NCBI GenBank assembly: GCA_002288455.1
Contig: NEUS01000037.1
Coordinates: forward strand, 1 to 33,846
Direction: 5' to 3'
From: Opitutia bacterium Tous-C1TDCM
GTDB lineage: Bacteria > Verrucomicrobiota > Verrucomicrobiia > Opitutales > Opitutaceae
DNA: 33,846 nt
Positions within the stretch are counted from its first letter, which is position 1; the number at the start of each line of letters is the position of its first letter. Of this stretch, positions 134 to 17,399 are shown one piece after another. Made by a program: the position numbers and the translations under genes. A model generated the notes under the pieces. The model was not told the origin of the DNA, did not search any database, and worked only from the letters and a program-made list of their open reading frames with translations.

Positions 134-166
134 ACTTTCAACTTTCAGCTTTCAACCTTCAACTCC
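134..166. repeat. Heptanucleotide array A (ACTTTCA-type)
   Basis: Four consecutive 7-base units, ACTTTCA, ACTTTCA, GCTTTCA and ACCTTCA (134-161), are followed by a partial ACTCC. The period is exactly 7. Read on the minus strand the word is TGAAAGT, and the TGA stop codon of the symporter gene (159-161) is part of the first unit of the array. The rest of the gap up to the next minus-strand start at 68 shows no other feature. Confidence 0.75.
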
Positions 167-1058
167 CGGCGGCAGGCGGCGCCGGTTCCGGCCGCTGGCG
201 ATGCAGCTGCCACGAGTTCCACAGGTTGTGCCAGATGACGTAGCAGGTCGGGCCGAGGGCGACGACCGGCCCGGCGTAGAGCAGTGCCAGATAGATGGTG
301 AACGTCGTGTTTTTCTGTCCCAGCGCCTGGCTTGCCTCGCGCGCGAATTCCCGGCCGCCGATCAGCCGGCCGACGCTGAAGTTCACGATGCAGACCACGA
401 GCGACGAGCCGGCGATCTGCAGCAGCAGCACGAGCGGGGTGTCGGCGTGGCCGCGCAGGAAGTAGGAGGCGTTGGCGGTGATGAGAAACATCGACGTCAC
501 CCACATGCCGAAGGACAGGTTGCGGAGTTTCGGCGGCCAGGCCGCCGCCCCCGGATAGACGAGCCGCAGCAGCCACGCCGCGCCCATCGGCACGAAGACG
601 ACGAGCCCGACGCTCCCGAACACCTGCGCGAAGGCCTCGGGGGTCGCGCGGCCGAGCACGATCGGCAGAATCAACGGGAGCAACGCGGCGACGCCGACGT
701 TGGTCAGCACGAAGGCGGCCACGACGTAATCCACCCGCCCGCGCAGAAAACTGATGATCACCGGGGCCGCGATCGCCGTCGGCGTAATGCCGCAGAAGAA
801 AGCAGCGAGCGCGATTTCCCGGCCGCCGACGAGCCAGCCGCCGCCCCAGGCCGCGAAGCCGAGCGCGAGATTGGTCGCGAAGAGCACGAGGTGTCTCCGC
901 GTCACGGCCGACCGCGAAAACCGGGTTTGCAGAAACACGATGAAGAGCATCGCCATCACCAGCCAACGGATGGCCCACGCGAGGCTGTGCGCCTGCGGCA
1001 CCAGCGCGCCGAGCACGATGGCGGAGAGAATGGCGGCGGTGCGGCTGAATCCGTTCAC
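159..1058 (-). CDS. Bile acid:sodium symporter (BASS) family transporter
   Basis: This 299-residue protein is almost entirely hydrophobic helices, about nine or ten. It matches the BASS/SBF fold of Na+-coupled organic anion transporters in length and in the GITPTAIAAPVI segment (around residue 100), which resembles the conserved helix-break region binding Na+ and substrate. The substrate cannot be read from sequence, and it is not clearly an arsenite (Acr3) transporter. The frame stays open upstream of 1058, but the first hydrophobic helix begins directly after the GTG at 1056-1058 and the upstream residues are charged and low-complexity, so GTG is chosen. The stop codon lies in heptad array A. 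It diverges from the secreted protein gene at 1188. Confidence 0.85.
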   Translation of the reverse strand: MNGFSRTAAILSAIVLGALVPQAHSLAWAIRWLVMAMLFIVFLQTRFSRSAVTRRHLVLFATNLALGFAAWGGGWLVGGREIALAAFFCGITPTAIAAPVIISFLRGRVDYVVAAFVLTNVGVAALLPLILPIVLGRATPEAFAQVFGSVGLVVFVPMGAAWLLRLVYPGAAAWPPKLRNLSFGMWVTSMFLITANASYFLRGHADTPLVLLLQIAGSSLVVCIVNFSVGRLIGGREFAREASQALGQKNTTFTIYLALLYAGPVVALGPTCYVIWHNLWNSWQLHRQRPEPAPPAAGS

Positions 1059-1187
1059 GGCAGGGAAGGCGCGACGACAACGCCCGCCGGCCGGCGACGC
1101 AACCGCGCAGCGCGGACCTTGACCGGGCCCGCGGCCCGCGCGAACTTGCCGCTTCCCCGGTCGTGCGTCGCGCGGCCGGTCGCCGCC

Positions 1188-2387
1188 ATGGACTTCCCCT
1201 CTTTCCTTCTTCGCCGCGGGGCCGGTTTCTGCCGAATCCGGTCGTGGCGGGCTGCGGTCTGGTGGGGCGTGGCGACGCTGCTGTTGACCCAAGCCGGGCG
1301 CGCGCAGCCGTTCACCGTGACGTGGACGATCGGGGCCGATTCGGCCGTCGTCGAAGTGGACGGCATCTGGAAAAACTCGATCGACGACCTCGTCCGCACC
1401 GAGTGGCCGCCGGAACTTTGGGCGCAGCTGTTCGTGGTGTTTGCGGAAGGGGAATTGGATCCGGGGGCGCCGGGTTTTGGCGCCGCCTTCGTGCCGGGCA
1501 CATGGCGCGTGGAAGGGCGGAAGGTGCGGTTCGAGACCTTGGCGCCGCTGCAACCCGGCGTGCCGTACCGCGCCGAGTTTCGGCCTTGGCGTTTGCCGGG
1601 CAACGGCCTGATCCCGAATTTCGGCGGCGGCGGCGGGGCGTCCGGACGCATGCCGGTGTACTCGTTCTACGAAGTCCCGGCGAAGCGGAACGAGGGCGCC
1701 GCGCTTACGCAGATTTTTCCCTCCGCGGCTTTGCTGCCCGCCAATCTCCGCGCGCTCGAGCTGCATTTCTCCGCCCCGATGCGGCGCGGGGCCGCCGGTC
1801 ACGTCCGCCTGCGCAGTGCGGGCGGCGCCGAACTCGCGCTCGGGCTCGGGCCGGCCGAAACGGAGCAATGGAACTCCACCATGACGCAGGTCTCGCTGCC
1901 GCTGCCGTCGGGCGCGGCCCGATTCAAGGTGGGCGAAACGTACACGTTGGAAGTGTTGCCGTCGTGGTTGGATGCGGGCGGGCGGCCCGTGCGCGCGGCG
2001 GTGCAGAAGCGCTTCCGGGTCGGGCCGCCGGACCGCGTGCCTTCGGATCCCGAGGCTTGGGAACTGCGGCCGCCGCCGCCCGGTTCATACCTGCCGCTCG
2101 AAATCGTTTTCGACGAACCGCTCGATCGCGAGCCGGCCACGCGGCTGATCCGCCTCCGGCGCGGCGGCGAGATCGTGTCGGGCGACAGTTCCGTCGGCGG
2201 CGAGGAGCGCCGCTGGCGCTTCATGCCCGTGCAACCTTGGGCGGCCGGCGACTACGAGATTGTGGTCGCCCCGGCGCTCGCGGATCTGGCGGGCAATCCG
2301 CTCGGCGGCGGGCCGGCGGCCGGCGCCGACAAAGCCGGCCGCGCCGCCGCCCCCGGGCAGATCGTGCTGCCGTTTGCGCTACGCTGA
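1188..2387 (+). CDS. Secreted protein with Ig-like (SbsA/Big_5) domains
   Basis: The predicted 399-residue protein has an arginine-containing N-region, a hydrophobic stretch (about residues 20-36) and a likely signal peptidase site at GRA/QP. The mature part contains at least two copies of the bacterial Ig-like SbsA/Big_5 pattern. In this pattern an opening like LRALELHFSAPM or LPLEIVFDEPLD leads to a closing segment of the type YTLEVLPSWLDAGGRPV or YEIVVAPALADLAGNPL. Such domains are structural modules of exported and surface proteins, and no catalytic motif is seen. The frame is open far upstream, but the upstream part is antisense to the symporter. The ATG at 1188 just precedes the signal peptide, with no Shine-Dalgarno sequence. 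Confidence 0.75.
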   Translation: MDFPSFLLRRGAGFCRIRSWRAAVWWGVATLLLTQAGRAQPFTVTWTIGADSAVVEVDGIWKNSIDDLVRTEWPPELWAQLFVVFAEGELDPGAPGFGAAFVPGTWRVEGRKVRFETLAPLQPGVPYRAEFRPWRLPGNGLIPNFGGGGGASGRMPVYSFYEVPAKRNEGAALTQIFPSAALLPANLRALELHFSAPMRRGAAGHVRLRSAGGAELALGLGPAETEQWNSTMTQVSLPLPSGAARFKVGETYTLEVLPSWLDAGGRPVRAAVQKRFRVGPPDRVPSDPEAWELRPPPPGSYLPLEIVFDEPLDREPATRLIRLRRGGEIVSGDSSVGGEERRWRFMPVQPWAAGDYEIVVAPALADLAGNPLGGGPAAGADKAGRAAAPGQIVLPFALR

Positions 2388-2453
2388 TTCCGCCGGTGGG
2401 TGGCAGTCGGAGGGTTGCCAGATCGCACCGCCATGCCCGCGCCCGCCCACAAC

Positions 2454-2520
2454 CCAAAACTCAAAACCCAAAACCCGCGCCCGGCGACAACTCCGAACTC
2501 CAAACTCCATATTCCAAACC
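2454..2520. repeat. Heptanucleotide array B (CCAAAAC then GAACTCC words)
   Basis: Two arrays are separated by 13 bases. The first, 2454-2474, is CCAAAAC, TCAAAAC, CCAAAAC. The second, 2488-2515, is CAACTCC, GAACTCC, AAACTCC, ATATTCC, with a trailing AAACC. Both have an exact period of 7. The same order of words (CCAAAAC then CAACTCC/GAACTCC) occurs at 7771-7854. The array lies in a 489-base gap (2388-2876) between two plus-strand genes. Apart from the hairpins at 2758-2829 nothing else in that gap was recognised. Confidence 0.75.
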
Positions 2521-2757
2521 GCGCGCGCCCCCGTGCGCCCCCGTTCAACCGGGCCCGAGTCCGTTTATCCAAACTTGTCTGTAACTTTGCCCGGCGTGGC
2601 GTGTTTTTGTGCCATGTCCGCAGCCGTACCGTGCCGTTTTTCGACCGCCACCCTGCCGCGTTTCGACGCGGGCCGGGCGGACTTGGTAGCAAATTCGTTC
2701 CCGGCGGCGGCCGCGGTCGTTTCCTTCCTGCCCGTTCGTAGTCATCAGTCGTGGGGT

Positions 2758-2829
2758 GTGGCCGGCTCGTTGTGGGGCCGGCCACTTCGCTTTGACGGGG
2801 AGGAACCAAGGGCCGCTTGCGTCGGCCCT
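2758..2829 (+). promoter_or_regulatory. Two tandem GC hairpins in the leader of the exporter operon
   Basis: Hairpin 1 has a 9-bp perfect stem, GTGGCCGGC (2758-2766) with GCCGGCCAC (2777-2785), and a 10-base loop. Hairpin 2 has a 7-bp perfect stem, AGGGCCG (2809-2815) with CGGCCCT (2823-2829). They lie 48 bases upstream of the adaptor ATG. Neither is followed by a T-run, so an ordinary intrinsic terminator is unlikely. A structured leader or a binding site for a regulator is possible. Function is inference. Confidence 0.4.
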
Positions 2830-2876
2830 GCCGATTTCATCCGATCACCGTTCCCGTTTCGACTTTCCTGATTTCC

Positions 2877-4232
2877 ATGAACGCTCCCGCTGCCAAATCC
2901 GCCGCCAAATCGTCCCGTACCGTGTGGTACGTGGTCGGCGGCCTCCTCGTTCTCGCCCTCCTCGGGGGCGGCGCCTACTTCAAGGCCAAGTCCGCGGACA
3001 AGAGCGTCGTCGTCACCGCCGAAAAAGCCGTCACCAAGACGATCACCCAATTGGTCAACGCCACCGGCAAGATCCAGCCCGAGGTCGAGGTGAAGATCGC
3101 CCCCGAAGTTTCCGGCGAGATCGTCGAATTGCCCCTGCGCGAAGGCGCCGTCGTGAAGAAGGGCGACCTGCTGGTGAAGATCAAACCGGACAACTACCGC
3201 TACCAGCTCGACCAGCGCGAGGCCGACCTCGCCGCCGCCCGCGCGTCCTCGATGCAGAGCAAGGCCCAGCTCGTGAAACTGCAGGAAGACCTCAAGCGCA
3301 CCTCGGAACTGTTTGCCAAAAAGCTCGTTTCCGATTCCGACCTCACGGCCGGCAAGACTTCCGTCGAGGCCGCCCAGGCCGGCTTCGAAAATTCCCTCGC
3401 CCAGATCCGCCGCCAGGAAGGCCTGCTCAGCCAGGCCAAGGATCAGCTCGAGAAGACGGTGATCTTCTCGCCCATGGACGGCACCGTCAGCTCCCGCACC
3501 TCCGAAGTCGGCGAGCGCGTCGCCGCCACCGGCCAATTCAACGCCGCCGAAGTCATGCGCGTCGCCGACCTCAGCCGCATGGAAGTCCGCGTCAACGTGA
3601 ACGAAAACGACGTCGTCAACGTCAAGGTCGGCGACAAGGCCCGCGTCAGCATCGACGCGTATCCGAACCGCAAATTCACCGGCGCCGTCCGCGAGATTGC
3701 CTCCGCCGCCAAAACCCAGGGCCTCAACACGCAGGAGGAAGTCACGAATTTCCAGGTGAAGATCAGCATCGCGGACAAGGACGTCGCCCTCCGCCCGGGC
3801 ATGAGCGCCAGCGTCGACATCGAGACCAAGACGGTCGAAGGCGTCGTCGCCGTGCCGATCCAGGCCGTCACCGTCCGCAGCCGCGAGGGCAGCAAGACGA
3901 TCGAGCAGCTCTCCCAGGACCGCGAGAAGAAGTCCAAGGAAAACCAGGGCGAAGGCGCCGCCGCCGCCGTCAACGAGAAGCAGCAGCGCGAGCGCGAGAA
4001 GGCCGACCGCGACGCCCTCCAGCGCGTCGTGTTTCTCAAGCAGGGCGAGACCGTGAAAATGGTCACGGTCGAGACGGGCATCAGCGACACCTCGCATCTC
4101 GAGATCAAGGCGGGACTCAAGGCCGGCGACGAAGTCGTCAGCGGTCCGTTCAGCGTCATTACCCGCACGCTCAAAGACGGCGCGAAAGTCCGCCTCGAAA
4201 AACCGAAAAAGAAAGACGAGGAGAAGAAGTAA
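2877..4232 (+). CDS. MacA/HlyD-type periplasmic adaptor of an ABC exporter
   Basis: This 451-residue membrane fusion protein should bridge an inner-membrane ABC permease to an outer-membrane channel. Residues 1-14 are cytoplasmic and a single membrane anchor spans about 15-34. The first half of the biotinyl-lipoyl domain ([20 protein letters not shown]) lies near residues 80-100, followed by an alpha-helical coiled-coil hairpin (about 110-190). The second lipoyl half begins [10 protein letters not shown] (near 200), with beta-barrel and membrane-proximal domains after it. A charged Lys/Glu/Gln-rich insertion (about 341-385) interrupts the last domain and is not typical of MacA. The ATG at 2877 is chosen because the anchor follows at once. 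It is one base from the ATPase gene. No TolC-like gene is in the window. Confidence 0.88.
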
Positions 4233-4233
4233 C

Positions 4234-4971
4234 ATGACCCCGTCCCCTTCCGCCGCCGCGTTGGAAAACCGCCCCGTCCGGCCGCCCGGCGCGCTCGTCA
4301 TCGAGATCGAGGGCGTCACCAAGCTCTACAAGATGGGCGCCGAGACGATCCACGCCCTCCGCGGCGTCAACGTCCGGATCCACCGGAACGAATACCTCGC
4401 CATCATGGGACCTTCCGGTTCCGGCAAATCGACGCTGATGAACATGCTCGGCTGCCTCGATACGCCGACCGCCGGCCGCTACGAGTTCTCGGGCAAGAAC
4501 GTCGCCACCATGGTCGACGACGAACTCGCCGACATCCGCAACCGCGAGATCGGTTTCGTTTTCCAGACCTTCAATCTGCTCCCGCGCTCCGACGCGCTCC
4601 ACAACGTCGAGCTGCCGCTGATCTATGCCGGCGTGTCCAAATCCGAGCGGCTCGAACGCGCCCGGCTCGCCCTCGAAAACGTCGGCCTCGGCGACCGCCT
4701 CCACCACAAGCCCAACGAACTCTCCGGCGGCCAGCGCCAGCGTGTCGCCATCGCCCGCGCCCTCGTCACCCGTCCTTCCATCATCCTCGCCGACGAGCCC
4801 ACCGGAAATCTCGATTCCAAAACCGGCGTCGAGATCATGAACCTCTTCGAGCAGCTCTACGCCCAAGGCAACACCCTCATCGTCGTCACCCACGAGGAAG
4901 ACATCGCCCGCCACTCGCGCCGCATCGTCCGCCTCCGCGACGGCCTGATCGAAAGCGACGCCCGGGTGTAA
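4234..4971 (+). CDS. MacB/LolD-type ABC transporter ATPase
   Basis: This 245-residue soluble ATPase powers the exporter encoded around it. It shows Walker A GPSGSGKS (about 59-66), the Q-loop in [11 protein letters not shown], the signature [15 protein letters not shown] (about 163), Walker [13 protein letters not shown] (about 183-194) and the H-loop in VVTHEED (about 217). The LLPR and DEPTGNLD wording is typical of the MacB/LolD/FtsE family. The preceding stop ends at 4232 and this ATG starts at 4234, so translation is probably coupled. A purine-rich GAGGAGAAGAAG upstream is one of the few plausible Shine-Dalgarno sites in the window. In E. coli MacB the ATPase and permease are one protein; here they are separate genes. 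Confidence 0.93.
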
Positions 4972-4973
4972 GC

Positions 4974-5166
4974 GACCAAGGGACAACAGACCAAAGGACC
5001 CGAAAGGGACCAAAGGACTAAGGACAAAAGGACCAAAGGACTACGATCCGCCGAACCAAGACGACCTCCGCACTTTGGGCATCCGCGCTTTTTCCGCGGT
5101 CGTTTCGTCCCTTGGTCCCTTGTCCTTTGGTCCCTGCATCCGTCCTTTGGTCCCTTAGTCCTTTCC
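4974..5166. repeat. Inverted heptad/octad arrays C (GGACCAAA) with a 63-base core
   Basis: The left arm (4974-5041) is a series of 7-8 base units starting GAC: GACCAAGG, GACAACA, GACCAAAG, one longer unit, then GACCAAAG, GACTAAG, GACAAAAG, GACCAAAG. The right arm (5105-5166) carries the complement, including GTCCTTTGGTCCC twice (5122-5134 and 5142-5154), which is the exact complement of 5006-5018. Between them is a 63-base non-repetitive core (5042-5104). The element fills the gap between the ATPase and the first permease of one operon, so a transcript could fold it into a long imperfect stem-loop. The right arm forms the pyrimidine-rich leader of the permease gene. Confidence 0.8.
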
Positions 5167-5174
5167 CAGCCCCC

Positions 5175-6422
5175 ATGCGCCGGTTTTACATCGAGATCCT
5201 CGAATCCATCCGGATCGCGTTCGCCCAGATCCGGGCGAACAAGCTGCGCTCCGCCCTGACGGCCCTCGGCGTCATCATCGGCATCGTCGCCGTCACGCTC
5301 ATGGGCACCGCGATCAAGGGCATCGACGCCGGCGTCGACCGCAGCTTCTCCGGTTTCGGCGACGACATCCTCTACGTCACGAAATGGCCGTGGCGCGACG
5401 TCGACGATTGGTGGAATTTCCGCAACCGCCGCCCGATCCGCCACGACTACGCGCGCCAGATCAACGATTGGGTCGCCGCCAATCCCGACGGTCCGCTCAA
5501 GCTCGCCGTGCCCACCGCCAGCCGCGGCACCAACGTCTCCCGCGGCGAATACCGCGTGAACAACATCTGGACCCTCGGCACGTCCGCCGACTACGCGCGT
5601 ATCACCCGTTCCGATCTCAAGGAAGGCCGTTTCTTCTCCGACTTCGAAGCCCAGACCGGCCGCAACGTCGCCGTCGTCGGCTTCGATGTCGCCGATGCGC
5701 TGTTCCCCGGCGAAAACGCCGTCGGCCAGAACATCCGGATCCGCGACCAGATTTTCCAGATCGTCGGCGTCGCCGCCCGCCAGGGCAGTTTCCTCGGGCT
5801 CTTCAGCTGGGACTCGATGGTCGCCATGCCGCTCACGACGTTCCGCCGCTATTACCGCACGGGCGAGGACGGCGAGGTCCGCGTCCAGGTCGACACGACC
5901 CGCATGGCCGCCGCGCGCGACGAATTGCGCGGCCTCATGCGCCGCCTCCGCCAACTTACGCCGGAGCAACGCGACGATTTCGAACTCAACGAACAGGGCA
6001 CGATCCGCTCGCAGCTCGATCCGATCAAAAACGGCATCGCCCTCGCCGGCTTCTTCATCACCGGCCTCGCGCTCTTCGTCGGCGCCATCGGCATCATGAA
6101 CATCACCTATGTGAGCGTGAAGGAACGCACCAAGGAGATCGGCACCCGCAAGGCCCTCGGCGCCCGCCGCCGCACCATTCTCCTCCAGTTCCTCATCGAG
6201 GCCGTGGCGATCTGTTTCGTCGGCGGGCTGGCCGGTCTCGCCGTCGCCGCCGGACTCACCCAGATCGTCGCCGTGGTCGCGCCGTCCTTCCCGCTCGTGT
6301 TCTCCCTCGGCCTCGTCTCCGTCGGTCTTATCATCTCCGCGCTCACCGGCATCTTCAGCGGCTTCGCCCCCGCGTGGCAGGCGAGCAAACTCGACCCCGT
6401 CGTCGCGCTGCGTTACGAGTGA
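5175..6422 (+). CDS. MacB/FtsX-family ABC permease, first of two
   Basis: This 415-residue permease has the MacB layout. A helix near residues 25-45 (SALTALGVIIGIVAVTLMG) is followed by a large periplasmic MacB_PCD domain (about 50-270). The C-terminal FtsX domain has three helices (about 283-310, 335-365, 370-395). The conserved cytoplasmic loop VKERTKEIGTRKALGARRRT (about 315-334) couples to the ATPase, and the protein ends SKLDPVVALRYE, the usual family ending. It begins with MRRFYIEILESIRIAF; upstream codons fall within the repeat array and are rejected. It is 28 bases from the next permease. The pair probably forms a heterodimer, unlike homodimeric MacB. Confidence 0.9.
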   Translation: MRRFYIEILESIRIAFAQIRANKLRSALTALGVIIGIVAVTLMGTAIKGIDAGVDRSFSGFGDDILYVTKWPWRDVDDWWNFRNRRPIRHDYARQINDWVAANPDGPLKLAVPTASRGTNVSRGEYRVNNIWTLGTSADYARITRSDLKEGRFFSDFEAQTGRNVAVVGFDVADALFPGENAVGQNIRIRDQIFQIVGVAARQGSFLGLFSWDSMVAMPLTTFRRYYRTGEDGEVRVQVDTTRMAAARDELRGLMRRLRQLTPEQRDDFELNEQGTIRSQLDPIKNGIALAGFFITGLALFVGAIGIMNITYVSVKERTKEIGTRKALGARRRTILLQFLIEAVAICFVGGLAGLAVAAGLTQIVAVVAPSFPLVFSLGLVSVGLIISALTGIFSGFAPAWQASKLDPVVALRYE

Positions 6423-6450: not shown

Positions 6451-7677
6451 ATGCTCTTCAACGAAATCCTCCGGCTCGCGCTCTCGTCGCTCCTGGCGAA
6501 CAAATTGCGCTCCGGGCTGACGATGCTCGGCATCGCCGTCGGCGTGTTCTCCGTCATCGGCGTCATGACGGTCATCACCGGCCTGCGCGGCTCGATCGAG
6601 TCCGGCCTGAATGTGCTCGGCGCAAACAGTTTCCAGATCACCAAATTTCCCGCGATCAACTTCTCGGATCCGTCGACGCGTTTTCGCAATCGCCGCGACA
6701 TCACCTACGCCCAGGCCGACCGCTTCAAGGAAATGATGCGCGGTTCCGCCGAGGTCAGCCTCACGCTGCGCCGCGCCGGCCGCCGCGTCAGCTACCTCGA
6801 CCGCAAAACCAACCCCAACGTGCGCCTGATCGGCTCCGACGAGAATTTTCTCTCGAGCCGCAATTTCGAAATTTCCGCCGGCCGCAACATCCAGGCCGAC
6901 GACGTCGAGTTCGGCCGCGCCGTCGTGCTGATCGGCGCCGACATCGTGAACCGCCTTTTTCCCAACGAGGAAGCGCTCGGCCGCCTCGTCCGCATCGACG
7001 GCCAGAGCTACACCGTCATCGGCCTGCTCGCCTCCAAGGGCACGACGTTCGGCGAAAATCTCGATATCAACGCCGTCACCCCGATCACGCAGTACCTCGA
7101 GGTCTACGGCCGTTCCTTCCGTTCCCTCAGCATCAACGTGCAGGCGCGCGACCAGGAATCGCTGGCCGGCACGCAGGACCAGGCGATCGGTGCCATGCGG
7201 CTCGTCCGCAGTCTCGAACCCGAGTTTCCCAACGACTTCGAAGTCTTCTCCAACGAATCGCTCATCGAAGCCTTCAACAACATCGCCGGCGTCGTCGCCA
7301 TCGGCGCCTTCGTGATCAGTGCCATCGCGCTCCTCGCGTCCGGCGTCGGCGTCATGAACATCATGCTCGTGAGCGTCACGGAACGCACCAAGGAGATCGG
7401 CATCCGGAAAAGCATCGGCGCGAAAAAGAAAAACATCCTCATGCAGTTCCTGATCGAGGCCGTCGTGCTCTCGCTCGCGGGCGGCCTGGCCGGCGTCATC
7501 TGCGGCATCGTCGGCGGCAATATCGGCGCGATGGTGCTCAACGCCTCCGCGGTTTTCCCATGGGGCTGGACCATCGCCGGCCTGCTCGTGTGCTCCGCCA
7601 TCGGCATCGGCTTCGGCTTCTATCCCGCCTGGAAAGCCGCCTCCCTCGATCCCATCGAGGCACTGCGGTACGAGTGA
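6451..7677 (+). CDS. MacB/FtsX-family ABC permease, second of two
   Basis: This 408-residue paralogue of the preceding permease has the same plan. There is an N-terminal helix (SGLTMLGIAVGVFSVIGVMT, about 23-42), a periplasmic MacB_PCD domain (about 45-275) and three C-terminal helices. The coupling loop is VTERTKEIGIRKSIGAKKKN and the ending is ASLDPIEALRYE. The two permeases differ clearly in their periplasmic domains, so the duplication is not recent, which fits a heteromeric exporter. It is the last gene of the adaptor-ATPase-permease-permease operon and faces the kinase gene across the complex repeat region 7688-7854. The exported substrate is unknown; peptides, lipids or drugs are all possible for this family. 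Confidence 0.9.
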   Translation: MLFNEILRLALSSLLANKLRSGLTMLGIAVGVFSVIGVMTVITGLRGSIESGLNVLGANSFQITKFPAINFSDPSTRFRNRRDITYAQADRFKEMMRGSAEVSLTLRRAGRRVSYLDRKTNPNVRLIGSDENFLSSRNFEISAGRNIQADDVEFGRAVVLIGADIVNRLFPNEEALGRLVRIDGQSYTVIGLLASKGTTFGENLDINAVTPITQYLEVYGRSFRSLSINVQARDQESLAGTQDQAIGAMRLVRSLEPEFPNDFEVFSNESLIEAFNNIAGVVAIGAFVISAIALLASGVGVMNIMLVSVTERTKEIGIRKSIGAKKKNILMQFLIEAVVLSLAGGLAGVICGIVGGNIGAMVLNASAVFPWGWTIAGLLVCSAIGIGFGFYPAWKAASLDPIEALRYE

Positions 7678-7687
7678 GGTATAAGAC

Positions 7688-7854
7688 CGGAAACCGGAAT
7701 TCGGAAACCGGAGCCGGGGGAGCAATTGCGGATCGCGGATTGCGGGTTGCGGATTGATCCGGCCGCAACCCCAAACCCAAAAACCAAAACTCAAAACCCG
7801 GAGCGCGGTTCTTCGCCTCCGCAACTCCGAACCCCGAACTTCGAACTCCGAACC
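7688..7854. repeat. Composite heptad region D: four different 7-base words in series
   Basis: Four arrays follow each other. D1 (7688-7715) is CGGAAAC, CGGAATT, CGGAAAC, CGGAGCC. D2 (7725-7759) is ATTGCGG, ATCGCGG, ATTGCGG, GTTGCGG, ATTGATC. D3 (about 7771-7799) consists of CCAAAC/CCAAAAC/TCAAAAC-type units spaced 6-7 bases. D4 (7822-7854) is CAACTCC, GAACCCC, GAACTTC, GAACTCC and a partial GAACC. D1, D2 and D4 keep an exact period of 7. The region fills the convergent gap between the exporter operon and the kinase gene. Confidence 0.8.
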
Positions 7855-7876
7855 GCCGCGGCTTTAGCCGCGGCGG
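7853..7876 (-). terminator. GC hairpin over the kinase stop codon
   Basis: A perfect 10-bp inverted repeat, CCGCCGCGGC (7853-7862) and GCCGCGGCGG (7867-7876), encloses the loop TTTA, which holds the TAA stop codon of the kinase gene. On the minus strand it is followed directly by the TTCGGAG-type heptads of D4, not by a T-run. A terminator or 3'-end stabilising role is inferred from position between convergent genes. Confidence 0.45.
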
Positions 7877-9084
7877 ATTTCCGAGCCCTGGAAACGGATC
7901 TGGATCCGGTAGACCTTTTTCGTGCGGCACTTGATCGCGCCGGTGGCGAGGTCGACCTTCTCCGGGATCTCGATTTTGTGGATGTCGACGACGGCGTGGT
8001 AGCCGCGCTCGGAAAACACGTCGATCAGCATGGCCAGCGACATCGGATCCTCGAGCACCGGATCTTCGGTATTGATCAACGCCACGCCCGAGATCGCGTG
8101 CCGGATCACGATCGGAATCATCTTCTTTTCGATGAAGGTGACGACCGTCGCGAACTGCTCGCGGTGTTCCAATTCGTAGGAGTCGAGCCGGCGGACCATT
8201 TCCTGCCGGGCGCCGACGATGATCTCGCTCGCCACCGGCACGCCGCGCAACCGGTCCACCGTGCGGGGATCGAGCTCGAGCGTGCTCTGGTATTCGAGTT
8301 CGTGAAGGATATTGCGCTCCACCTCTTCGATCGGGCCCTGCGCGTTGATGAAGTGGTAGTGGAAGATTTCCTTCAGCGACTGCAGCGCGTCCCAAGTCTG
8401 TTCCTTGAAGACACGGTAGCGCCGGCGCGCCAGGGTTTCGTCGTGGTCCGTCGGGCGGTCTTCCCAGAGCTCGCCGATGCCCGTGCGCGCGACTTCCTCG
8501 TTGTGCACCTTGGTTTCGCGGCCGCGCTTCAGTTGGCGCGCGATCGATTCCTTCTCGTCGACGAAGAGCACCATGATGTGGATCGTCGGCTGGCGGAAAT
8601 GGATGCTGAGCGGCGTGTGGTAAAACTCGCGGCGCAGCATGTGCATTTTGTCCACGAGCAGCTTGAGGCACTCGACCTGCACATTGGTGCGCGGGAAACC
8701 GTCGAGGATGACGCCGTCCTGATATTGCCGTTTCAGCAATTGCCGGAGCAGCAAACCGACGACCTCGCGGTCGCCGACCATGTTGCCCGCATCCTTCAGC
8801 GCCTTGGCTTCGGGCGTATCGAGCAGCGCACTGATCACGATGGGCGGGCAGGTGAGGCCCCGGGTTTTCGTGATGAAGGCCGTGTTGGTGCCCTTGCCGG
8901 CGCCCGGCGCGCCGCCGAGCAGAATGATTTCCTTGGGAAACCGCAGGTGCTCCAAGCCTACCTTCGCCACCAAGTCGCGCCAGACGGATTCGAAAATCAG
9001 GTGCGCGTCCTTGATCTCAAGATCGGTGAGCTTTCCCGGGGTCGGGGCGGCGGCGGCAGGTGCGGTCGCAGGGTTTAGCGGCAT
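7864..9084 (-). CDS. Adenylate-kinase-like NMP kinase with C-terminal extension
   Basis: The predicted protein has 406 residues, about twice the length of adenylate kinase (roughly 215). After a 45-residue N-terminal extension come the P-loop GGAPGAGKGT (57-66), the NMP-binding and core motif DGFPRT (128-133) and an Arg/Asp lid-type segment with RPTDHDETLARRRY (210-223). The kinase core therefore seems complete and should transfer phosphate from ATP to a nucleoside monophosphate. Residues from about 268 to 406 form an extra mixed alpha/beta region that I do not recognise. An alternative ATG at 9120 adds 12 residues but lies inside a heptad array, so 9084 is preferred. Whether it replaces or supplements a standard Adk cannot be judged from this window. 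Confidence 0.8.
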   Translation of the reverse strand: MPLNPATAPAAAAPTPGKLTDLEIKDAHLIFESVWRDLVAKVGLEHLRFPKEIILLGGAPGAGKGTNTAFITKTRGLTCPPIVISALLDTPEAKALKDAGNMVGDREVVGLLLRQLLKRQYQDGVILDGFPRTNVQVECLKLLVDKMHMLRREFYHTPLSIHFRQPTIHIMVLFVDEKESIARQLKRGRETKVHNEEVARTGIGELWEDRPTDHDETLARRRYRVFKEQTWDALQSLKEIFHYHFINAQGPIEEVERNILHELEYQSTLELDPRTVDRLRGVPVASEIIVGARQEMVRRLDSYELEHREQFATVVTFIEKKMIPIVIRHAISGVALINTEDPVLEDPMSLAMLIDVFSERGYHAVVDIHKIEIPEKVDLATGAIKCRTKKVYRIQIRFQGSEIRRG

Positions 9085-9094: not shown

Positions 9095-9266
9095 GGCAAA
9101 GGGCGGAGGGCTAGAGGCATTTGCCCGCAAGTTCGACACAAGAAACGCCCCGCCTCCCAAATGCCAGCCGCTAGCCGCCAACTCCAAACTCCGAACCCCG
9201 AACTCCGAACTCCAAACCCCGTTCCCGAACCCAGAACCCAGAACCCAAAACCCAGAACCCAGAACC
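9095..9266. repeat. Heptad arrays E: inverted GGC-type arms plus long GAACTCC/GAACCCA array
   Basis: The left arm is GGCAAAG, GGCGGAG, GGCTAGA, GGCATTT (9095-9122). After a 31-base core, a continuous in-phase array runs 9154-9266 in 7-base steps. It starts CTCCCAA, ATGCCAG, CCGCTAG, CCGCCAA, moves through CTCCGAA-type units and ends in GAACCCA/AAACCCA units. A single 6-base unit (9221-9226) breaks the phase. CAAATGCC and CTAGCC in the right part are inverted copies of words in the left arm. With about 16 units this is the longest array in the window. It lies between the U32 gene stop and the kinase start. Confidence 0.82.
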
Positions 9267-9298
9267 GCGCCGCGCGCCCCGCTGCGCGGCGCCGGTTC
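9262..9298 (-). terminator. GC hairpin at the end of the U32 gene
   Basis: An inverted repeat pairs CGCCGCGC (9268-9275) with GCGCGGCG (9284-9291) around an 8-base loop. It is extended by GAACCG (9262-9267) with CGGTTC (9293-9298) after one bulged base. The right arm overlaps the U32 stop codon (9297-9299). On the minus strand the hairpin leads straight into TTCTGGG-type heptads. There is no T-run, so classic intrinsic termination is uncertain, but the position fits a 3'-end structure. Confidence 0.45.
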
Positions 9299-11864
9299 AC
9301 GTTTTCCGCCGGATCACCTGCGCCGCGGTCTCCATCTGGCCGCGCGTCACGCCGAGCTGGTTGATCAGCTTCAGTTCCCGCCACAGTTCGTCCCCGGAAA
9401 TCTCGCCGCGCAGCAATTGCGCGTAGCGGCCCAGGGTGCGCGTCATTTCCTCGGCCGGTTCGTTCACGAATTCCACGCGGAAACTGCGCGCCCCGAGCTC
9501 GACCAGCCGCGCGGCGTATTCGGCGCCGGTCTGGGCGCGGTTGTTGAAAACCGTGTTGCGGCAACCGGCGTCCGCCTTGAGCGGCAGCTCGGCCCCCACG
9601 CGGTCGCGCAGCGCCACGCGGTGTTTGTCGCAGGGCCGGCCGCAGTCGCGGTAGTCCTTGCCCGAGGACAGAAACGCGCAAAACACGCAGTGCTCCATAT
9701 GGAACATCGGCATGTGCTGGTGGATCGTCAGGTCGAACCACGTCCCCGGCGCCGCCTGCAGCAACGCTTCCAATTGGCCGATGTTGAGGTCGTAGCTGGC
9801 CGTCACGCGCTCGAGGCCGTAACGCTGGAGGTAATACGCCGCCGTCCACGGATTCGCCACGTTGAGCGAGAAGTCGCCGCGCTTCCGGTCGCCCGCGAAA
9901 AACGCGAGGTGGTCGTGGTTGCGCACGAGGTAGCCGTCGGCTTCGGACGAACGCACCTGTTTGAGGATCCACTCCTCGCCCGGCTTGAAGATGCGCGGCG
10001 CCGCCACCCAGATCGTCGCCGCGGCCGCCGGATCCTGCGGTTGCAATTCCCGGAAGCGCGCGACGGCGTCGCGGTAGTGTTTCGGGTTTTCGAATTCGCA
10101 GTAGATCGTCCGCACCCCGGCCGCCCAGGCCGCGTCCAATTGTTCGAGCAGCCGGATGACCGCGATCAGCTCGGGCGCCCGTTCCGGCGGCGGAGCCGCC
10201 CGGAAATCCGGCGCCGCGAACGATTCCCGCAGCTGCCAGCGCTTGGGCTGCGCGCGCAGCCGTTCCAGGGTCGCCGCGGCTTCGCGGCGCAGGCGGTTGA
10301 GTTCGCTGACCGGCAAAATCACCGCGCCCTCGAGGTGCGATTCCAGTTTGCCCAGGCGGAACGGCGTACCGCCGAGCCGCCCGAGTTGCTCGCGCAGTCG
10401 TTCCGCGGAAAGCGGCTGCTTCTCCGCCGCCGCGAGCGGCACGGCCGACTCGACCTTCGCCACATGGCCCTCGCCATCGCTCGCGATCAGCGTCAGCGGC
10501 GTGCCCGCGCGACCGTGGATCTCGAGGTCGACGGGCCGCTGGAAACGGATCTGCTCGCCCTCGAAGGTACCGCGCAGTTCGCGGTCGAGCGCGGGGTCGT
10601 TGGTCTTCCAAAGCCATTGGCCGACCCGCACGCGGCGCCAGTCGATGTCGCCCTGGCCGAAGCGCAGCGTCGTCTCGCCGCCCGCCCCGCCGCGCGGCTC
10701 GACCTGATAGACGCGGCCGCCTTCCTCTTTCTCTTCGGGCTTGCCGGCGTCGAAGACGATGCCGTCGCCGGGCTTCAGCGGCGCGGCGAGTTTCAGGGTG
10801 ACGGATTCGTTGGCCACCGCGGCGATTTCGCCGAGGAAGACGCCGCGCTTGGTGCCGAAGCGCGCGTGCGCGAGTTCCTGGTTGTGGATGCCGCGGAACC
10901 AACCCGTGTAGAGCCCGCGGGAAAATGCCATCTGCAGTTCGTAGCGGGCGGGATCGGCCGCGGCGTCTCCCTTTGCCTCGCGGTCGGTCGCCCGCGGTCC
11001 GGCGAGCTTGTCCAAGGCCTGCCGATACACGCGGGTGATGCTGGCGACGTATTCGGGCGCTTTCAGGCGACCTTCGATTTTAAGCGAAGCCACGCCGGCG
11101 CGCACGAGCTCCGGGAGCACGTCGATGCCGGCGAGATCCTGCGGGCTGAGCAGATAGCGGCGGTCGCCGAGATCGATCTGGCGGCCGTCGGCGATCAGGT
11201 CGTAGGGCAGGCGGCAGGCTTGGGCGCATTCGCCGCGGTTCGCCGAACGGCCGCCGAGCGATTCGCTCGTCAGGCACTGGCCGGAATAGGCGACGCAGAG
11301 CGCGCCGTGCACGAAGACTTCCAGCGGCAGCGCCACGGGAGCCGTTTTTTGCGCGGCCTGGATTTTTTCGATTTCGGCGATGGAGTTCTCGCGCGCGAGC
11401 ACGACCAGTTGCGCCCCGAGCTCGCGGGCAAAGTCCACGCCGGCCGCGCTCGTGACCGTCATCTGCGTCGAGGTGTGGATCGGGAAATCCGGCGAGAGCG
11501 CGCGGATCATCCGGCAGATGCCGACGTCCTGCACGATCGCCGCATCCACGCCCGCGGCGATGATGGTGCGCAGGTAGTCCGCGGCGTCGGCCAACTCGGG
11601 CGTGAAGACGAGGGTGTTGAAGGTGACGTAGCCGCGCACACCGCGGCGGTGCAAAAACTCCATCAGCGCCGGCAGGTCCGCCTGGGTGAAGTTCTTCGCG
11701 CGCATCCGCGCGTTGAAACGCTCGAGGCCGAAGTAGATCGCGTCGGCGCCGTTTTCGACCGCGGCTTTGGCGCATTCCCAATCGCCGGCGGGCGCGAGCA
11801 GTTCCGGGCGCACCGGGACGGGCGTGGGCGACGGCGAAAGGGCGGGAGCGGAAACGGAAGACAC
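9297..11864 (-). CDS. U32 peptidase-family protein, two-domain (RlhA/TrhP-like)
   Basis: This 855-residue member of the U32 family is longer than E. coli RlhA/YdcP (about 650). The first TIM-barrel-like domain starts RPELLAPAGDWECAKAAVENGAD (about 19-41), shown here across its length. It carries the family signature EVFVHGALC ... SGQC (182-197) with cysteines 190, 197, 213 and 217, the expected ligands of a [4Fe-4S] cluster. A middle beta-rich collagenase-like region (DUF3656 type, about 290-600) is followed by a second U32-like domain with its own cysteine set (HCVFC ... CGRPC, about 725-745). Characterised relatives use prephenate to hydroxylate rRNA or tRNA bases, so RNA modification is likelier than proteolysis. 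Start is GTG at 11862-11864. Confidence 0.85.
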   Translation of the reverse strand: MSSVSAPALSPSPTPVPVRPELLAPAGDWECAKAAVENGADAIYFGLERFNARMRAKNFTQADLPALMEFLHRRGVRGYVTFNTLVFTPELADAADYLRTIIAAGVDAAIVQDVGICRMIRALSPDFPIHTSTQMTVTSAAGVDFARELGAQLVVLARENSIAEIEKIQAAQKTAPVALPLEVFVHGALCVAYSGQCLTSESLGGRSANRGECAQACRLPYDLIADGRQIDLGDRRYLLSPQDLAGIDVLPELVRAGVASLKIEGRLKAPEYVASITRVYRQALDKLAGPRATDREAKGDAAADPARYELQMAFSRGLYTGWFRGIHNQELAHARFGTKRGVFLGEIAAVANESVTLKLAAPLKPGDGIVFDAGKPEEKEEGGRVYQVEPRGGAGGETTLRFGQGDIDWRRVRVGQWLWKTNDPALDRELRGTFEGEQIRFQRPVDLEIHGRAGTPLTLIASDGEGHVAKVESAVPLAAAEKQPLSAERLREQLGRLGGTPFRLGKLESHLEGAVILPVSELNRLRREAAATLERLRAQPKRWQLRESFAAPDFRAAPPPERAPELIAVIRLLEQLDAAWAAGVRTIYCEFENPKHYRDAVARFRELQPQDPAAAATIWVAAPRIFKPGEEWILKQVRSSEADGYLVRNHDHLAFFAGDRKRGDFSLNVANPWTAAYYLQRYGLERVTASYDLNIGQLEALLQAAPGTWFDLTIHQHMPMFHMEHCVFCAFLSSGKDYRDCGRPCDKHRVALRDRVGAELPLKADAGCRNTVFNNRAQTGAEYAARLVELGARSFRVEFVNEPAEEMTRTLGRYAQLLRGEISGDELWRELKLINQLGVTRGQMETAAQVIRRKT

Positions 11865-14249: not shown

Positions 14250-14432
14250 ATGAATAAGAACATCCTCCTTGCGGTTACCTCCGGCACGATTGCCGCCGCC
14301 GCCCTCGTGCTTTCTTTCCGTTCCTCGGTTACTGCGGATTCCCTGATCGGCTTTGCCAGCGTCCTCGGACTGCTGGGCATCGCGACCTTGGAGTATCGCA
14401 TCAACTGGAAGCGGCTCCTCGGCCTCAACTAA
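14250..14432 (+). CDS. Small 60-residue membrane protein, unknown function
   Basis: This 60-residue protein begins MNKNILLAVTSGTIAAAALV and consists of two hydrophobic segments (about 5-22 and 31-46). The short basic tail is YRINWKRLLGLN. No family was recognised. It is a convincing gene because it has its own near-consensus -10 box upstream and a strong intrinsic terminator 24 bases after the stop. It is therefore probably transcribed alone. It shares its control region with the divergent LysR gene and may be regulated by it. ATG is preferred over a TTG at 14223. Confidence 0.7.
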   Translation: MNKNILLAVTSGTIAAAALVLSFRSSVTADSLIGFASVLGLLGIATLEYRINWKRLLGLN

Positions 14433-14456
14433 GCCGAAGAGCAGATAACCTGAACA

Positions 14457-14485
14457 GGGGTCCGGAGCAATCCGGGCCCCTTTTT
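14457..14485 (+). terminator. Intrinsic terminator of the small membrane protein gene
   Basis: A 9-bp stem pairs GGGGTCCGG (14457-14465) with CCGGGCCCC (14472-14480), with one G-T pair and a 6-base AGCAAT loop. It is followed directly by TTTTT (14481-14485) and then ATT. This is the only textbook Rho-independent terminator found in the window. Confidence 0.9.
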
Positions 14486-14594
14486 ATTGCCCGGATCCGG
14501 CGGCCGGGGCGGAAAAGGGCACTTTTGGTCCAACGGTAGACAAAGCACGTCGCCGCCGGCGCTTCCTTGGCATCACGATCCCGTATCAGCCCGC

Positions 14595-15110
14595 ATGGAG
14601 GAATTGCCCGCACATGACACTTGGCAGCATTGGTTTCAGTCCCACGGCCCGAAGCTGTTGCTCTGCGCCCGGCAATGGACGCGGTCGGCGGCCGATGCCG
14701 AGGACATCGTCCAAGATGCATTTGTCCGTTTCTGGCGGCATCAACGCCACCTGCCCGGCGACCCGATGGCGCTGCTCGTCACTTCGATCCGGCGCGCCGC
14801 TTTGGATCGGGCGCGCGGCGAAGACCGGCGGACGCGCCGCGAAGATTTCTCGCTCGTCGGGGCCGGGGAGCCGACGGCGGAGTTCGTTTCTGCCTTGGAG
14901 GCGGACGACCGTCGGCTCGCGCTCGAGGATGCCCTGGGTCGCCTGCCGGCGGAGCAACGCGAAGTGCTCGTGCTCAAGATCTGGGCGGAGCTCACCTTCG
15001 ACCAAATCGGCGGCGAACTCGGGCTTTCGCCCAACACGGCGGCGTCCCGCTACCGTTACGCCCTTGCCGCCCTGCGTCGGGAACTGACCCCTGCCGATTG
15101 CCATGGATGA
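14595..15110 (+). CDS. ECF-family RNA polymerase sigma factor
   Basis: The 171-residue protein has the two-domain plan of extracytoplasmic function sigma factors. Region 2 includes ADAEDIVQDAFVRFWRH (about 35-51), which binds core polymerase and the -10 element. Region 4 ends in LTFDQIGGELGLSPNTAASR (about 135-154), the helix-turn-helix for the -35 element. The ATG at 14595 (MEELPAHD) is preferred to upstream starts that would add unrelated residues. Its stop overlaps the start of the next gene by 8 bases, so the two are translationally coupled, the usual arrangement for a sigma factor and its membrane regulator. Confidence 0.9.
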   Translation: MEELPAHDTWQHWFQSHGPKLLLCARQWTRSAADAEDIVQDAFVRFWRHQRHLPGDPMALLVTSIRRAALDRARGEDRRTRREDFSLVGAGEPTAEFVSALEADDRRLALEDALGRLPAEQREVLVLKIWAELTFDQIGGELGLSPNTAASRYRYALAALRRELTPADCHG

Positions 15111-15552
15111 CGAACTGAAAGATCTCGAAGCGGAACTGCGCCGCCTGCGACCGGCACCCGTTACCGACCGCCTTTGGGCGCGGTTGGAGGGCGAGTTGGC
15201 CACGGCGGCGCCGCCGCCGGCCGCGCCGGCCGATTGGCGCTGGCTCTGGAGTTTCGTCCTGCCGGCTGCCGCCGCCGCCGCTCTCATGGTCTGGCAACCG
15301 GGCCGGCCCGCGCCGGCGCGGGGAACCGGCGCGGTCCTGGCCGGGGGCGCCCTGCGTCCCGTCGCCGCGGAAAACCTCCTCGTGCGCGCCCGCGACGAAG
15401 GCTTGGTGACGCTCGACGACGGCACGCCGGCCCGGCGCGAGCGTTGGACTTTTGTGGATACGATCACGTGGAGCGATCCGCGGACGAATGCTTCCCTCAC
15501 TTGGACCGTGCCGCGCGAAGAGGTCCGCGTGGTGCCGGTCGTTTTCCAATAA
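15103..15552 (+). CDS. Single-span membrane protein, putative anti-sigma factor
   Basis: The 149-residue protein has a charged N-terminal segment of about 45 residues, one hydrophobic helix (WLWSFVLPAAAAAALMVW, about 47-64) and a C-terminal domain of about 85 residues beyond the membrane. That is the topology of an anti-sigma factor. The ZAS zinc motif (HxxxCxxC) is absent, so if it is an anti-sigma factor it is of another type. The assignment rests on topology and on the 8-base overlap with the ECF sigma gene. The C-terminal half has no recognised family. Confidence 0.6.
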   Translation: MDDELKDLEAELRRLRPAPVTDRLWARLEGELATAAPPPAAPADWRWLWSFVLPAAAAAALMVWQPGRPAPARGTGAVLAGGALRPVAAENLLVRARDEGLVTLDDGTPARRERWTFVDTITWSDPRTNASLTWTVPREEVRVVPVVFQ

Positions 15553-15569
15553 TCCAACCTCCTCCTCCT

Positions 15570-16619
15570 ATGCTTCCCTCCCTTTTGAAACTCCGCCCGC
15601 TCACTTTGATGGCGGCCCTGTTTGCCCTCGGCGTCGGCGCCTTGGCCGCGGCCGATGCCCCCGCACCCAAGTCCCCTCTGCCGGCGGAGCGGCGCGAACT
15701 CCGGGTGCTCTCCGGCCCGGAACGCGAACTCCTGACCGTGATCGAGGCCCGCGTGGCGGGGGACGGCAAAATGGAACTGGAGCAGGTCACCTTTCTCGGC
15801 GTCGAGACCGGGCCGGTGGCCGGAGCGCTCGCGGCCCAACTCGGTCTCGCCGAAGGCACCGGGCTCGTCGTGAACCATATTGTGCCGCAAAGCGCGGCCG
15901 CCGGGGTCCTCGCGGTCCACGATATCCTCGTGAAACTCGACGACCAGATTTTGATCGAGACGCGGCAACTGGCCGTGCTGATCCGCGGCAAAAAGGCGGG
16001 CGACGAAGTGACGTTCACCTACCTGCGCGGCGGCAAATCCGCCACCGCCAAGGTGAAGTTGGGCCAACGGGAAATGCCGAAGACCGCGGCTTGGTCGGAG
16101 GGAGGTGCCAAGACCTTCAATTTTGTCGGCGTCCCCGCGTCGGAAGACGGCCGCCCGAATTCCGCGGCGGACCGCGGCGAGGTCGATCGCGTGCTTGGCT
16201 TGCTGAAACGTTCGCACGCGGCCGGCACGGTCCGCGAAGAGATTGCGCGCGGCGAGGGCCCGGGCTTCCGCGTCATCGCCATCAACACCGGCAACAGCAC
16301 CCTGAATTTCAACGACGACCAGGGTTCCCTCGAGCTGACGGTGCGCGAGGGCGTCAAATCGGTCGTGGCGAAGGACCGCGACGGCAAAGTCGTTTTCTCG
16401 GGCCCCGCCACGGGTGAAGCGGAACGCAAGGCCATGCCCGCCGAGGTGCGCGCGCGGCTCGAGAAGGTCGAGGGCATGCGCGAAATGAGCTTCCGCACCG
16501 ACGGTGAATTCAAAGGCGTGCAGAACCGCACGGTCCGCACGCGGGGCATTTCGCTGCCCGTGGAAAAATCCTTGCCGGCCGCGGCCGGTTCCCGGTCGTG
16601 GCCGCCGCGGGTGCTCTGA
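15570..16619 (+). CDS. Periplasmic PDZ-domain protein
   Basis: This 349-residue protein has a signal peptide (about 1-27, cleavage near ALAAADA) and one PDZ domain (about 60-160). The domain includes EGTGLVVNHIVPQSAAAGV, the groove strand and helix, and GDEVTFTYLRGGK. There is no protease domain, so it is not DegP/HtrA. The C-terminal 150 residues contain an acidic/basic region with VVAKDRDGKVVFSGPATGEA and are unassigned. It lies 17 bases after the membrane protein gene, in line with a sigma/anti-sigma/envelope-sensor operon in which the PDZ domain binds exposed peptide ends. That role is inferred. It ends 8 bases from the convergent DUF4199 gene. Confidence 0.75.
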   Translation: MLPSLLKLRPLTLMAALFALGVGALAAADAPAPKSPLPAERRELRVLSGPERELLTVIEARVAGDGKMELEQVTFLGVETGPVAGALAAQLGLAEGTGLVVNHIVPQSAAAGVLAVHDILVKLDDQILIETRQLAVLIRGKKAGDEVTFTYLRGGKSATAKVKLGQREMPKTAAWSEGGAKTFNFVGVPASEDGRPNSAADRGEVDRVLGLLKRSHAAGTVREEIARGEGPGFRVIAINTGNSTLNFNDDQGSLELTVREGVKSVVAKDRDGKVVFSGPATGEAERKAMPAEVRARLEKVEGMREMSFRTDGEFKGVQNRTVRTRGISLPVEKSLPAAAGSRSWPPRVL

Positions 16620-16627
16620 CGATTCGC

Positions 16628-17170
16628 TCAGTTGGCCGCCGACGCCGGGTTCGGCAGTTCCGGGCGTTGGCGGTAGAAGATCGCGATGAGCAGCGAAAGG
16701 CCAACCGACCAGATGAAGCCGAAGATGGCCTGGAAAACCGTCATCGCGGGCGGCGACATCCACTTCCGCATCATCGGTTCCGTTTCTTCGGCTTTGGCGG
16801 CCGGCAGGCCCGCTTCGATCATGGCGTCGATCTGCGCCTGGACCATGAGATCGCTCAGGCCGGGATTGATGATGGCAAAATAGAGATAGGCGAAAACGGC
16901 TCCGAGCAAGGCCCCCACGAGGCCCGTCAGCACGCCGGCGCCGAGCGCATTGCCGTAACCCCAATCTTCTTCGGTGGTGTAGGTGCGGCGTTTTTCCTTC
17001 ATCGCGAGCGCCAGCGAGGCGACGCCGATGGCGATCCCGCCGACCATTCCGACCCATTGCGCCGACTTCAATTTGGCCGTGTCGTCGTGCAGCCCGGCGA
17101 AAAACATCAGGAGAGTGAGCACGGCGCCGGCAAACGCCATCAACGAGCCGTAGGTGAGAGCGAGCTTCAT
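16628..17170 (-). CDS. DUF4199-family membrane protein
   Basis: The 180-residue protein has four hydrophobic helices (about 5-27, 36-55, 72-98 and 140-165). The soluble segment between helices 3 and 4 (about 100-138) is rich in Met, Ala and Glu. Helix placement and the wording YLYFAIINPGLSDLM match the DUF4199 family, whose function is unknown. ATG at 17170 starts at MKLALTYG; an in-frame TTG at 17206 would add twelve residues. The 243-base gap upstream holds heptad arrays F and no gene. Confidence 0.72.
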   Translation of the reverse strand: MKLALTYGSLMAFAGAVLTLLMFFAGLHDDTAKLKSAQWVGMVGGIAIGVASLALAMKEKRRTYTTEEDWGYGNALGAGVLTGLVGALLGAVFAYLYFAIINPGLSDLMVQAQIDAMIEAGLPAAKAEETEPMMRKWMSPPAMTVFQAIFGFIWSVGLSLLIAIFYRQRPELPNPASAAN

Positions 17171-17277
17171 GCGGCGCAGCAAGGCGGCCGCCCGCGCCGG
17201 ACTCAATCCGGTCGTGATCGCCGGTCCGGCGGCGGGATGGACGGCACCGCGCCGGCCCGCTCAGCCGAACTCATGCA

Positions 17278-17399
17278 GTTGAGTGGGCTTGGTTGAGAGT
17301 TGAGAGCAAAACCGTTCGGTCTCGAACGTACCGTGCTGCGGTTGCGTTTTCCGTGCCGCGACGGATCGATCTCTCAACCCTCATCTCTCAACGCGCAAC
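17278..17399. repeat. Inverted heptad arrays F (GTTGAGA) with a 66-base core
   Basis: The left arm (17278-17305) is GTTGAGT, GGGCTTG, GTTGAGA, GTTGAGA. The right arm (17372-17399) is TCTCAAC, CCTCATC, TCTCAAC, GCGCAAC. Both have an exact period of 7, and TCTCAAC is the complement of GTTGAGA, so the arms can pair. The core of 66 bases (17306-17371) is close in length to the 63-base core of array C. The rest of the gap shows nothing recognisable. Confidence 0.75.

Follow-up and report, generated by a model that had tools for sequence, protein, structure and literature searches.

Several bacterial groups are reported to carry heptamer repeats, on whose origin there is no agreement. The nearest described counterpart of those treated here lies within a ribosomal RNA (rRNA) gene. 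The intervening sequence (IVS) of the Coxiella burnetii 23S rRNA gene has a 28-bp stem, carries tandem heptamers before the gene for S23p and is cut by RNase III (PMC4990558). S23p belongs to the intervening sequence proteins (IVP; PF05635), the function of which is not known (PMC4990558) and which resemble Avd, a protein of diversity-generating retroelements (PMC10053308). A 33,846-nt stretch of the genome of Opitutia bacterium Tous-C1TDCM (contig NEUS01000037.1, positions 1 to 33,846; the window) holds arrays of 7-nt units in several of its intergenic spacers, and these arrays are probably the arms of small IVS-type hairpin cassettes inserted just past stop codons, often within operons.

The IVS of C. 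burnetii shares with these cassettes a similar size (428 nt), complementary ends of about 28 bp, the heptamers beside the gene and the PF05635-family protein, but IVSs of this type sit in rRNA genes, whereas the present elements are found in spacers between protein genes and, in the window, are devoid of the gene. In Xanthomonas and Nostoc, heptamers mostly come as four 7-nt units, are rare between divergent genes, have their G-rich strand as the sense strand near stop codons and form inverted pairs (70 and 75). The arrays described here agree with them in unit number, strand and place, although those repeats were read as G-quadruplex motifs (PMC4692102). Geobacter metallireducens has tandem 7- or 8-nt units paired on opposite strands at variable distance, which is the same paired build, read in that case as global regulator sites (PMC2700814), and Beggiatoaceae carry TAACTGA repeats (PMC4679880). 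No publication joining intergenic heptamer arrays to PF05635 was found in a search of mostly non-subscription literature, the nearest being the C. burnetii paper, and the text of PMC4692102 contains no mention of S23, intervening, four-helix or xcc0516.

Complementary repeat arms around IVP genes

Wide inverted pairs of arrays in four loci (L147, L156, L158 and L167) surround a gene of ~120 codons, and both of the encoded proteins that were tested match PF05635, the 23S rRNA-intervening sequence protein family (4e-13 and 2e-14); one such protein, searched in NCBIfam, matches TIGR02436. PF05635 is found in 40 of 57 related genomes, with eight copies in G000, the 4.15-Mb genome that holds the window, and seven in its sister species G007. 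The named genomes closest to G000 place it, a metagenome-assembled genome, in the Opitutaceae. A set of 90 IVP loci was composed of 30 search returns, the 55 next by E-value (two contig-edge hits skipped) and five from G000 and G007, and 89 of these were scored after L259 had been dropped for its short flank. Flank complementarity of at least 12 accompanies 75 of the 89 IVP genes versus 6 of 454 control genes, and period-7 or period-8 arrays occur in both flanks of 53 and 4, respectively, with none at periods 5 and 10 in either group. When 20 loci from plasmids and viral contigs are added to the 90, stems of at least 14, the cut-off of this arm-period survey, are present at 84 of 110 loci, and the arm period is 7 in 68 of these elements, 8 in 12, 6 in two and 9 in two. 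The 5' arm holds more G than C in 82 of the 84, and arm length has a median of 30 nt (quartiles 27.5 and 33.5; 59 elements with a stem of at least 15).

The gatA-gatB junction of another species, G002, and the gyrB-gyrA junction of G000 have one block in common (428 bp, 78.5%), which begins at the left arm, contains the IVP gene and stops within the right arm, and blastn detects no further similarity between the two 10-kb regions around it. Arms and IVP gene are thereby shown to be one unit present at unrelated loci in two species. In addition, gene-bearing and gene-free elements of the same genome have ends in common, since three of the four stem-bearing IVP elements of G000 match gene-free arrays of that genome (15, 12, 4 and 0 arrays), as do 18 of 50 elements from other genomes (G007 excluded), which match at least one. 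Two window arrays, at 7823-7853 and 9180-9221, match the arms of one G000 IVP element (L252), and the window element at 17257-17409 has the same word as the arms of another (L248).

A second cargo occupies the same kind of site. Among the other genes found at these junctions, 10 of 11 examined resemble GxxExxY proteins, and both candidates that were tested match PF13366, of the PD-(D/E)XK nuclease superfamily, one of those tested also matching TIGR04256. These genes lie between inverted arms of 8-10-nt units at gyrB-gyrA (L361, L366, L376, L378) and at gatA-gatB (L391, L397, L399, L404, L406, L412), two junctions that hold GxxExxY genes in some species and IVP cassettes in others. Stems of at least 12, the cut-off of this second survey, are present in 26 of 30 GxxExxY loci, with an arm period of 9 in 14, 10 in seven and 8 in five, a median arm length of 29 and a G-rich 5' arm in only 12. 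The original prediction, made from the letters of the window alone, had suggested that selection acts on spacing or that a copying process makes 7-base units; that arm length is alike while the period differs with the cargo is the main support for selection on spacing, although a copying process may also keep the units alike.

Arms of this kind extend to other replicons. IVP genes were detected by tblastn on 23 plasmid records, mostly cyanobacterial, and gave no match in phage records; complementary arms of at least 14 flank 17 of 20 such loci (16 plasmid and four viral-contig loci, some near-duplicates), and these arms are mostly heptameric, so that the likeness to filamentous cyanobacteria, drawn earlier from their short tandemly repeated repetitive (STRR) sequences, proves apt. 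One Azospirillum copy (L304) has the same build inside a 23S rRNA gene (Rfam LSU_rRNA_bacteria, 1e-290). Furthermore, three IVP genes of cyanobacterial plasmids (L295, L302, L307) sit between cmr2 and cmr3 or between cas6 and cas4; two of them have complementary arms (14.5 and 25), and L302 has arrays but no clear stem. PF05635 genes adjoining cas4 and cas6 in cas loci have been read as having a CRISPR-Cas-associated function (PMC3936711), whereas the arms found here suggest inserted cassettes.

Placement of the arrays and states of their junctions

The six places at which 7-base-step arrays had been predicted, as one family outside genes, all hold arrays detected by Tandem Repeats Finder. The window contains seven lag-7 segments against a mean of 0.19 and a maximum of two in 200 window shuffles, and seven against 0.03, maximum one, when its 22 intergenic stretches are shuffled alone (300 shuffles); as intergenic 7-nt tandem units above chance, the window arrays belong to the STRR or long simple sequence repeat class. 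In a genome sample of 40 other G000 stretches (658 kb), lag 7 gives 38 segments compared with one in a single shuffle and lag 8 gives eight compared with none, while outside the multiples of 3, 7 and 8 no lag gives more than one segment. The assignment to one family holds, and by a home-made gene finder no array lies inside a gene in the window, the one at 134-163 overlapping a gene end by 17%. The proposal that period is conserved without sequence survives in part: the period is kept more than the word, but words recur within G000 and in G007. CCGAACTCCGAACTC with at most one mismatch occurs 195 times in G000 and its reversed control not once, and the word families of that genome include GTTGAGA (13 arrays), GTTGAAA (12), AGTTCGG (9), GGCGAAA (6) and others with fewer, together with octamer words such as AAATTGGG.

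Long perfect arrays stand at contig ends (L055 10363-10485, L059 1-123, L037 1-121, L038 1-123), and given this position the repeats probably break the assembly.

With genes called by a home-made codon-based finder trained on the window genes, 78 of 84 period-7 or period-8 arrays in the genome sample and the window are intergenic, in a sequence of which intergenic DNA makes up 11.4% of bases. For 66 arrays a gene was called on either side; convergent spacers (9.3 kb) hold 24 of them, codirectional ones (42.1 kb) 37 and divergent ones (19.2 kb) five, which makes convergent spacers about ten times as dense in arrays as divergent ones. The comparison with gene ends that had been proposed as a check places the arrays just after stop codons: lag-7 identity peaks in the first 40 nt past the stop (0.364 versus 0.27-0.30 for six other lags) and is only slightly raised before starts (0.316 versus 0.29-0.31), and arrays that face the 3' end of a gene have a median distance of 14 nt to its stop codon. 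Around one gene in 80 named loci (1.43 Mb), arrays occur in 28 loci, and 40 of the 52 fall between genes (30 in codirectional, six in convergent and two in divergent spacers, and two lacking a gene on one side). This post-stop placement goes beyond what had been predicted, as do the connection with PF05635 and the finding that a third of the arrays form inverted pairs.

Of the 78 intergenic arrays, 26 have a complementary partner that scores at least 12 and lies no more than 250 nt away, versus 15 of 361 random intergenic 30-mers, and the gene-free period-7 arrays have a median length of 31 (quartiles 28 and 37). In a hand-picked folding set, five of 15 loci, including window 4970-5170, reach a z of -2.7 or lower. 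A perfect hairpin of G000 (L035) and its G007 ortholog differ mostly in the loop, where 36 of 59 columns are conserved compared with 28 of 30 bases in each arm, and one base pair is altered on both sides.

Orthologous junctions occur in empty, hairpin and IVP-bearing states, and IVP genes are present in relatives at junctions whose window copies are gene-free. The perm1-perm2 junction (59 loci) is empty in 49, with four hairpins, one array, four IVP genes and one other content; abc-perm1 (56 loci) has 30 empty, nine hairpin, two IVP and 15 other; perm2-adk (53 loci) has 20 empty, four hairpin, three array, five IVP and 21 other; and mfp-abc (51 loci) has 39 empty and 12 other. The adk-u32 junction (19 loci) holds an array in three and other content in 16. 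In this set of junction counts G007 enters twice, L102 and L121 are one genome and some hairpins (L125, L131, L174) have no short period. At gyrB-gyrA, resolved in 28 of 30 fetched genomes, seven have an IVP gene, while the spacer of the remaining ones is short, forms a gene-free hairpin (with differing words) or holds another gene, and at gatA-gatB two of 30 genomes have an IVP gene. One gyrB-gyrA spacer (L368) holds a different open frame of ~148 aa followed by CTCTCCCTTTCC repeats.

Synteny between the window and the sister species G007 holds at 84-87% identity. Both genomes have the same kind of word, in differing unit counts, at 2454, 4974, 7688 and 9095, which are four of the six predicted places; G007 lacks the element at 17257-17409, and the place at 134 falls outside the alignment. 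In the surroundings of the adenylate-kinase-like gene in 30 genomes, window words occur only in G000 and G007, and five others have other period-7 words.

Competing explanations and a proposed mechanism

Several observations weigh against the cassette reading. No partner of score 12 or more accompanies 52 of the 78 gene-free arrays, and the folds of the window arrays at 2440, 7685 and 9090 are at the level of shuffled sequence. In only 45 of 69 arrays with a facing 3' end does the G-rich strand correspond to the sense strand of the closest such gene, and the absence of 17257-17409 from G007, whose sequence runs on, may be a gain in G000 or a loss in G007. Arm mismatches show no G-U excess (72 of G-U type, 95 of A-C type), and RNA pairing is therefore not supported by the mismatch test, while the repeat word tracks IVP sequence only among close proteins, the overall rank correlation being 0.071, a value reached by 99 of 2000 permutations; both results may be affected by three loci (L218, L226, L230) kept on the wrong strand. 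A strict protein-to-word code is rejected, as 14 of 14 different-locus pairs have like words at a protein score of at least 0.8, but 23% of 64 pairs do at 0.6-0.8. Finally, the comparison of an IVP-less set (0 arrays in 325 kb) with an IVP-rich one (9 in 367 kb) is confounded by lineage and GC content, with four of the nine arrays on a single contig.

The rival that keeps the most weight, although we consider it unlikely, is that the arrays are plain tandem repeats, produced by 7-nt slippage of DNA polymerase in unconstrained spacers, with inverted pairs arising by template switching and IVP genes merely located there. Because only a third of the gene-free arrays are paired, confidence in cassettes is lowered and that in plain repeats raised; moreover, slippage accommodates the differing unit numbers at the same place in G000 and G007 and has been invoked for heptamers in earlier work (cited in PMC4679880 and PMC4692102). 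Against it stand the tenfold denser convergent spacers, array lengths that cluster near 30 nt, arms and IVP gene shared as one block at two loci, and an arm period that goes with the cargo family.

That the arrays act as transcription terminators, or as stabilisers of mRNA 3' ends made of repeats, is improbable. Their location past stop codons and their enrichment between convergent genes are what such a role would predict, but elements also stand within operons (gyrB-gyrA, gatA-gatB and the permease pair), and intrinsic terminators are rejected on the grounds of a T-rich tail after the 3' arm in just one of 57 IVP elements and of terminator-like sites in the window at shuffle level (23 versus 18.9).

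We give very little credence to a role as host regulatory sites or as G-quadruplexes, the readings put forward for the Geobacter pairs and the Xanthomonas and Nostoc heptamers, even though the same build is reported there (PMC2700814, PMC4692102): many words have no GGG runs, on which ground G-quadruplexes are rejected as a general basis, and the elements come and go between close species. Ordinary miniature inverted-repeat transposable elements moved by an unseen transposase (transposases and REP-associated tyrosine transposases were not searched for), with IVP as cargo, would fit the inverted ends, the words common to forms with and without the gene and the single cassette at two loci, but are likewise most improbable, as one constant gene family goes with widely varying end sequences, PF05635 does not count among the transposase families and no clear target duplication has been established, TCAG flanking 17257-17409 on both sides at that single element. 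Mobility by reverse transcriptase is rejected, since G007, with its seven IVP genes and arrays, has no match to RVT_1, which has one match in G000 and any in 20 of 57 genomes.

Under the cassette reading, a complete cassette would have a PF05635 gene for a four-helix-bundle IVP/S23 protein, preceded by a G/A-rich arm of ~30 nt, or about four 7-nt units, and followed by the complementary arm. The window arrays would be gene-free or decayed forms, and for the unpaired two thirds of arrays we infer this. A mini hairpin at 17257-17409, an octamer hairpin at 4974-5166 and a composite spacer at 7686-7853 may represent the form without the gene, and the single arrays may be decayed halves of cassettes. 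By analogy with what is reported for rRNA IVSs, the transcript might fold and its stem be cut by RNase III or a similar nuclease, in which case an insertion within an operon would do no harm; full cassettes might serve gene-free ones in trans, and the IVP protein might read the unit spacing. Excision, mobilisation in trans and protein binding are offered as proposals.

A wider reading, which we advance tentatively and regard as doubtful, would unite the cyanobacterial STRRs, the Xanthomonas GGGAATC repeats, the paired octamers of Geobacter and the Opitutaceae arrays as the ends of one class of stop-start-junction cassettes, with ~30-nt arms, unit spacing set by the cargo protein (7-8 nt for PF05635, 8-10 nt for GxxExxY) and gene-free hairpins mobilised in trans. 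In the PDB, the single match of a G000 IVP is XCC0516 of X. campestris (2gsc), and with this solved relative a homopentamer, each subunit perhaps takes one repeat unit. If arrays and IVP are one cassette, each would explain the other, the arrays as element ends and IVP as the candidate handler of those ends; IVP genes in cas operons would be insertions and not CRISPR accessories, and a long-unexplained bacterial repeat would be tied to the intervening sequences of rRNA genes.

The window elements and their neighbours

The elements of the window lie between protein genes, not within an rRNA gene, and a tblastn search with 90 IVP sequences found no S23p/IVP gene in the window; because of these two properties they are classed as IVS-like gene-free cassettes or their remains and not as rRNA IVSs. 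The hairpin element at 17257-17409 closely follows the minus-strand gene 17414-18205 at its 3' end and has a GTTGAGA array and its complement at its ends, with a borderline stem (z -1.99); Tandem Repeats Finder reports its period-7 arrays, at 17292-17306 and 17369-17390, as weak. At 4974-5166, the mixture of 7- and 8-base steps that had been predicted is actually an inverted pair of octamer arrays, GACCAAAG ... CTTTGGTC, with period 8 at 4974-5041 and 5107-5135 and a long stem (z -4.13). It separates two genes of one operon, which encode an ABC-type ATPase (4234-4971) and a permease (5175-6422).

The composite element at 7686-7853 fills the spacer of the convergent genes 6451-7677 (plus strand) and 7864-9084 (minus strand), and comprises CCGGAAA and ATTGCGG arrays followed by AACCCAA and CTCCGAA arrays (Tandem Repeats Finder: 7686-7712, 7725-7756, 7767-7799 and 7817-7853), with no strong stem (z -0.72). 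Period-7 AACTCCG and GAACCCA arrays at 9163-9266 (Tandem Repeats Finder: 9180-9221 and 9193-9266) lie downstream of the minus-strand gene 9297-11813, at 14 nt from its 3' end; the sense strand is G-rich and there is no partner arm (fold z -0.24). The usual arrangement is departed from at 2446-2519, where the sense strand is C-rich, no stem is formed (fold z -0.44) and CCCAAAA and AACTCCA arrays of period 7 on the plus strand (2446-2476 and 2489-2519) lie 58 nt past the plus-strand gene 1269-2387. A single period-7 array of GTTGAAA at 134-164 on the minus strand marks the 3' end of the minus-strand gene 159-1058; it sits at the window edge, and no partner arm was found for it. Elsewhere in the window, at the spacer 25365-25414, G007 has ~97 extra bases.

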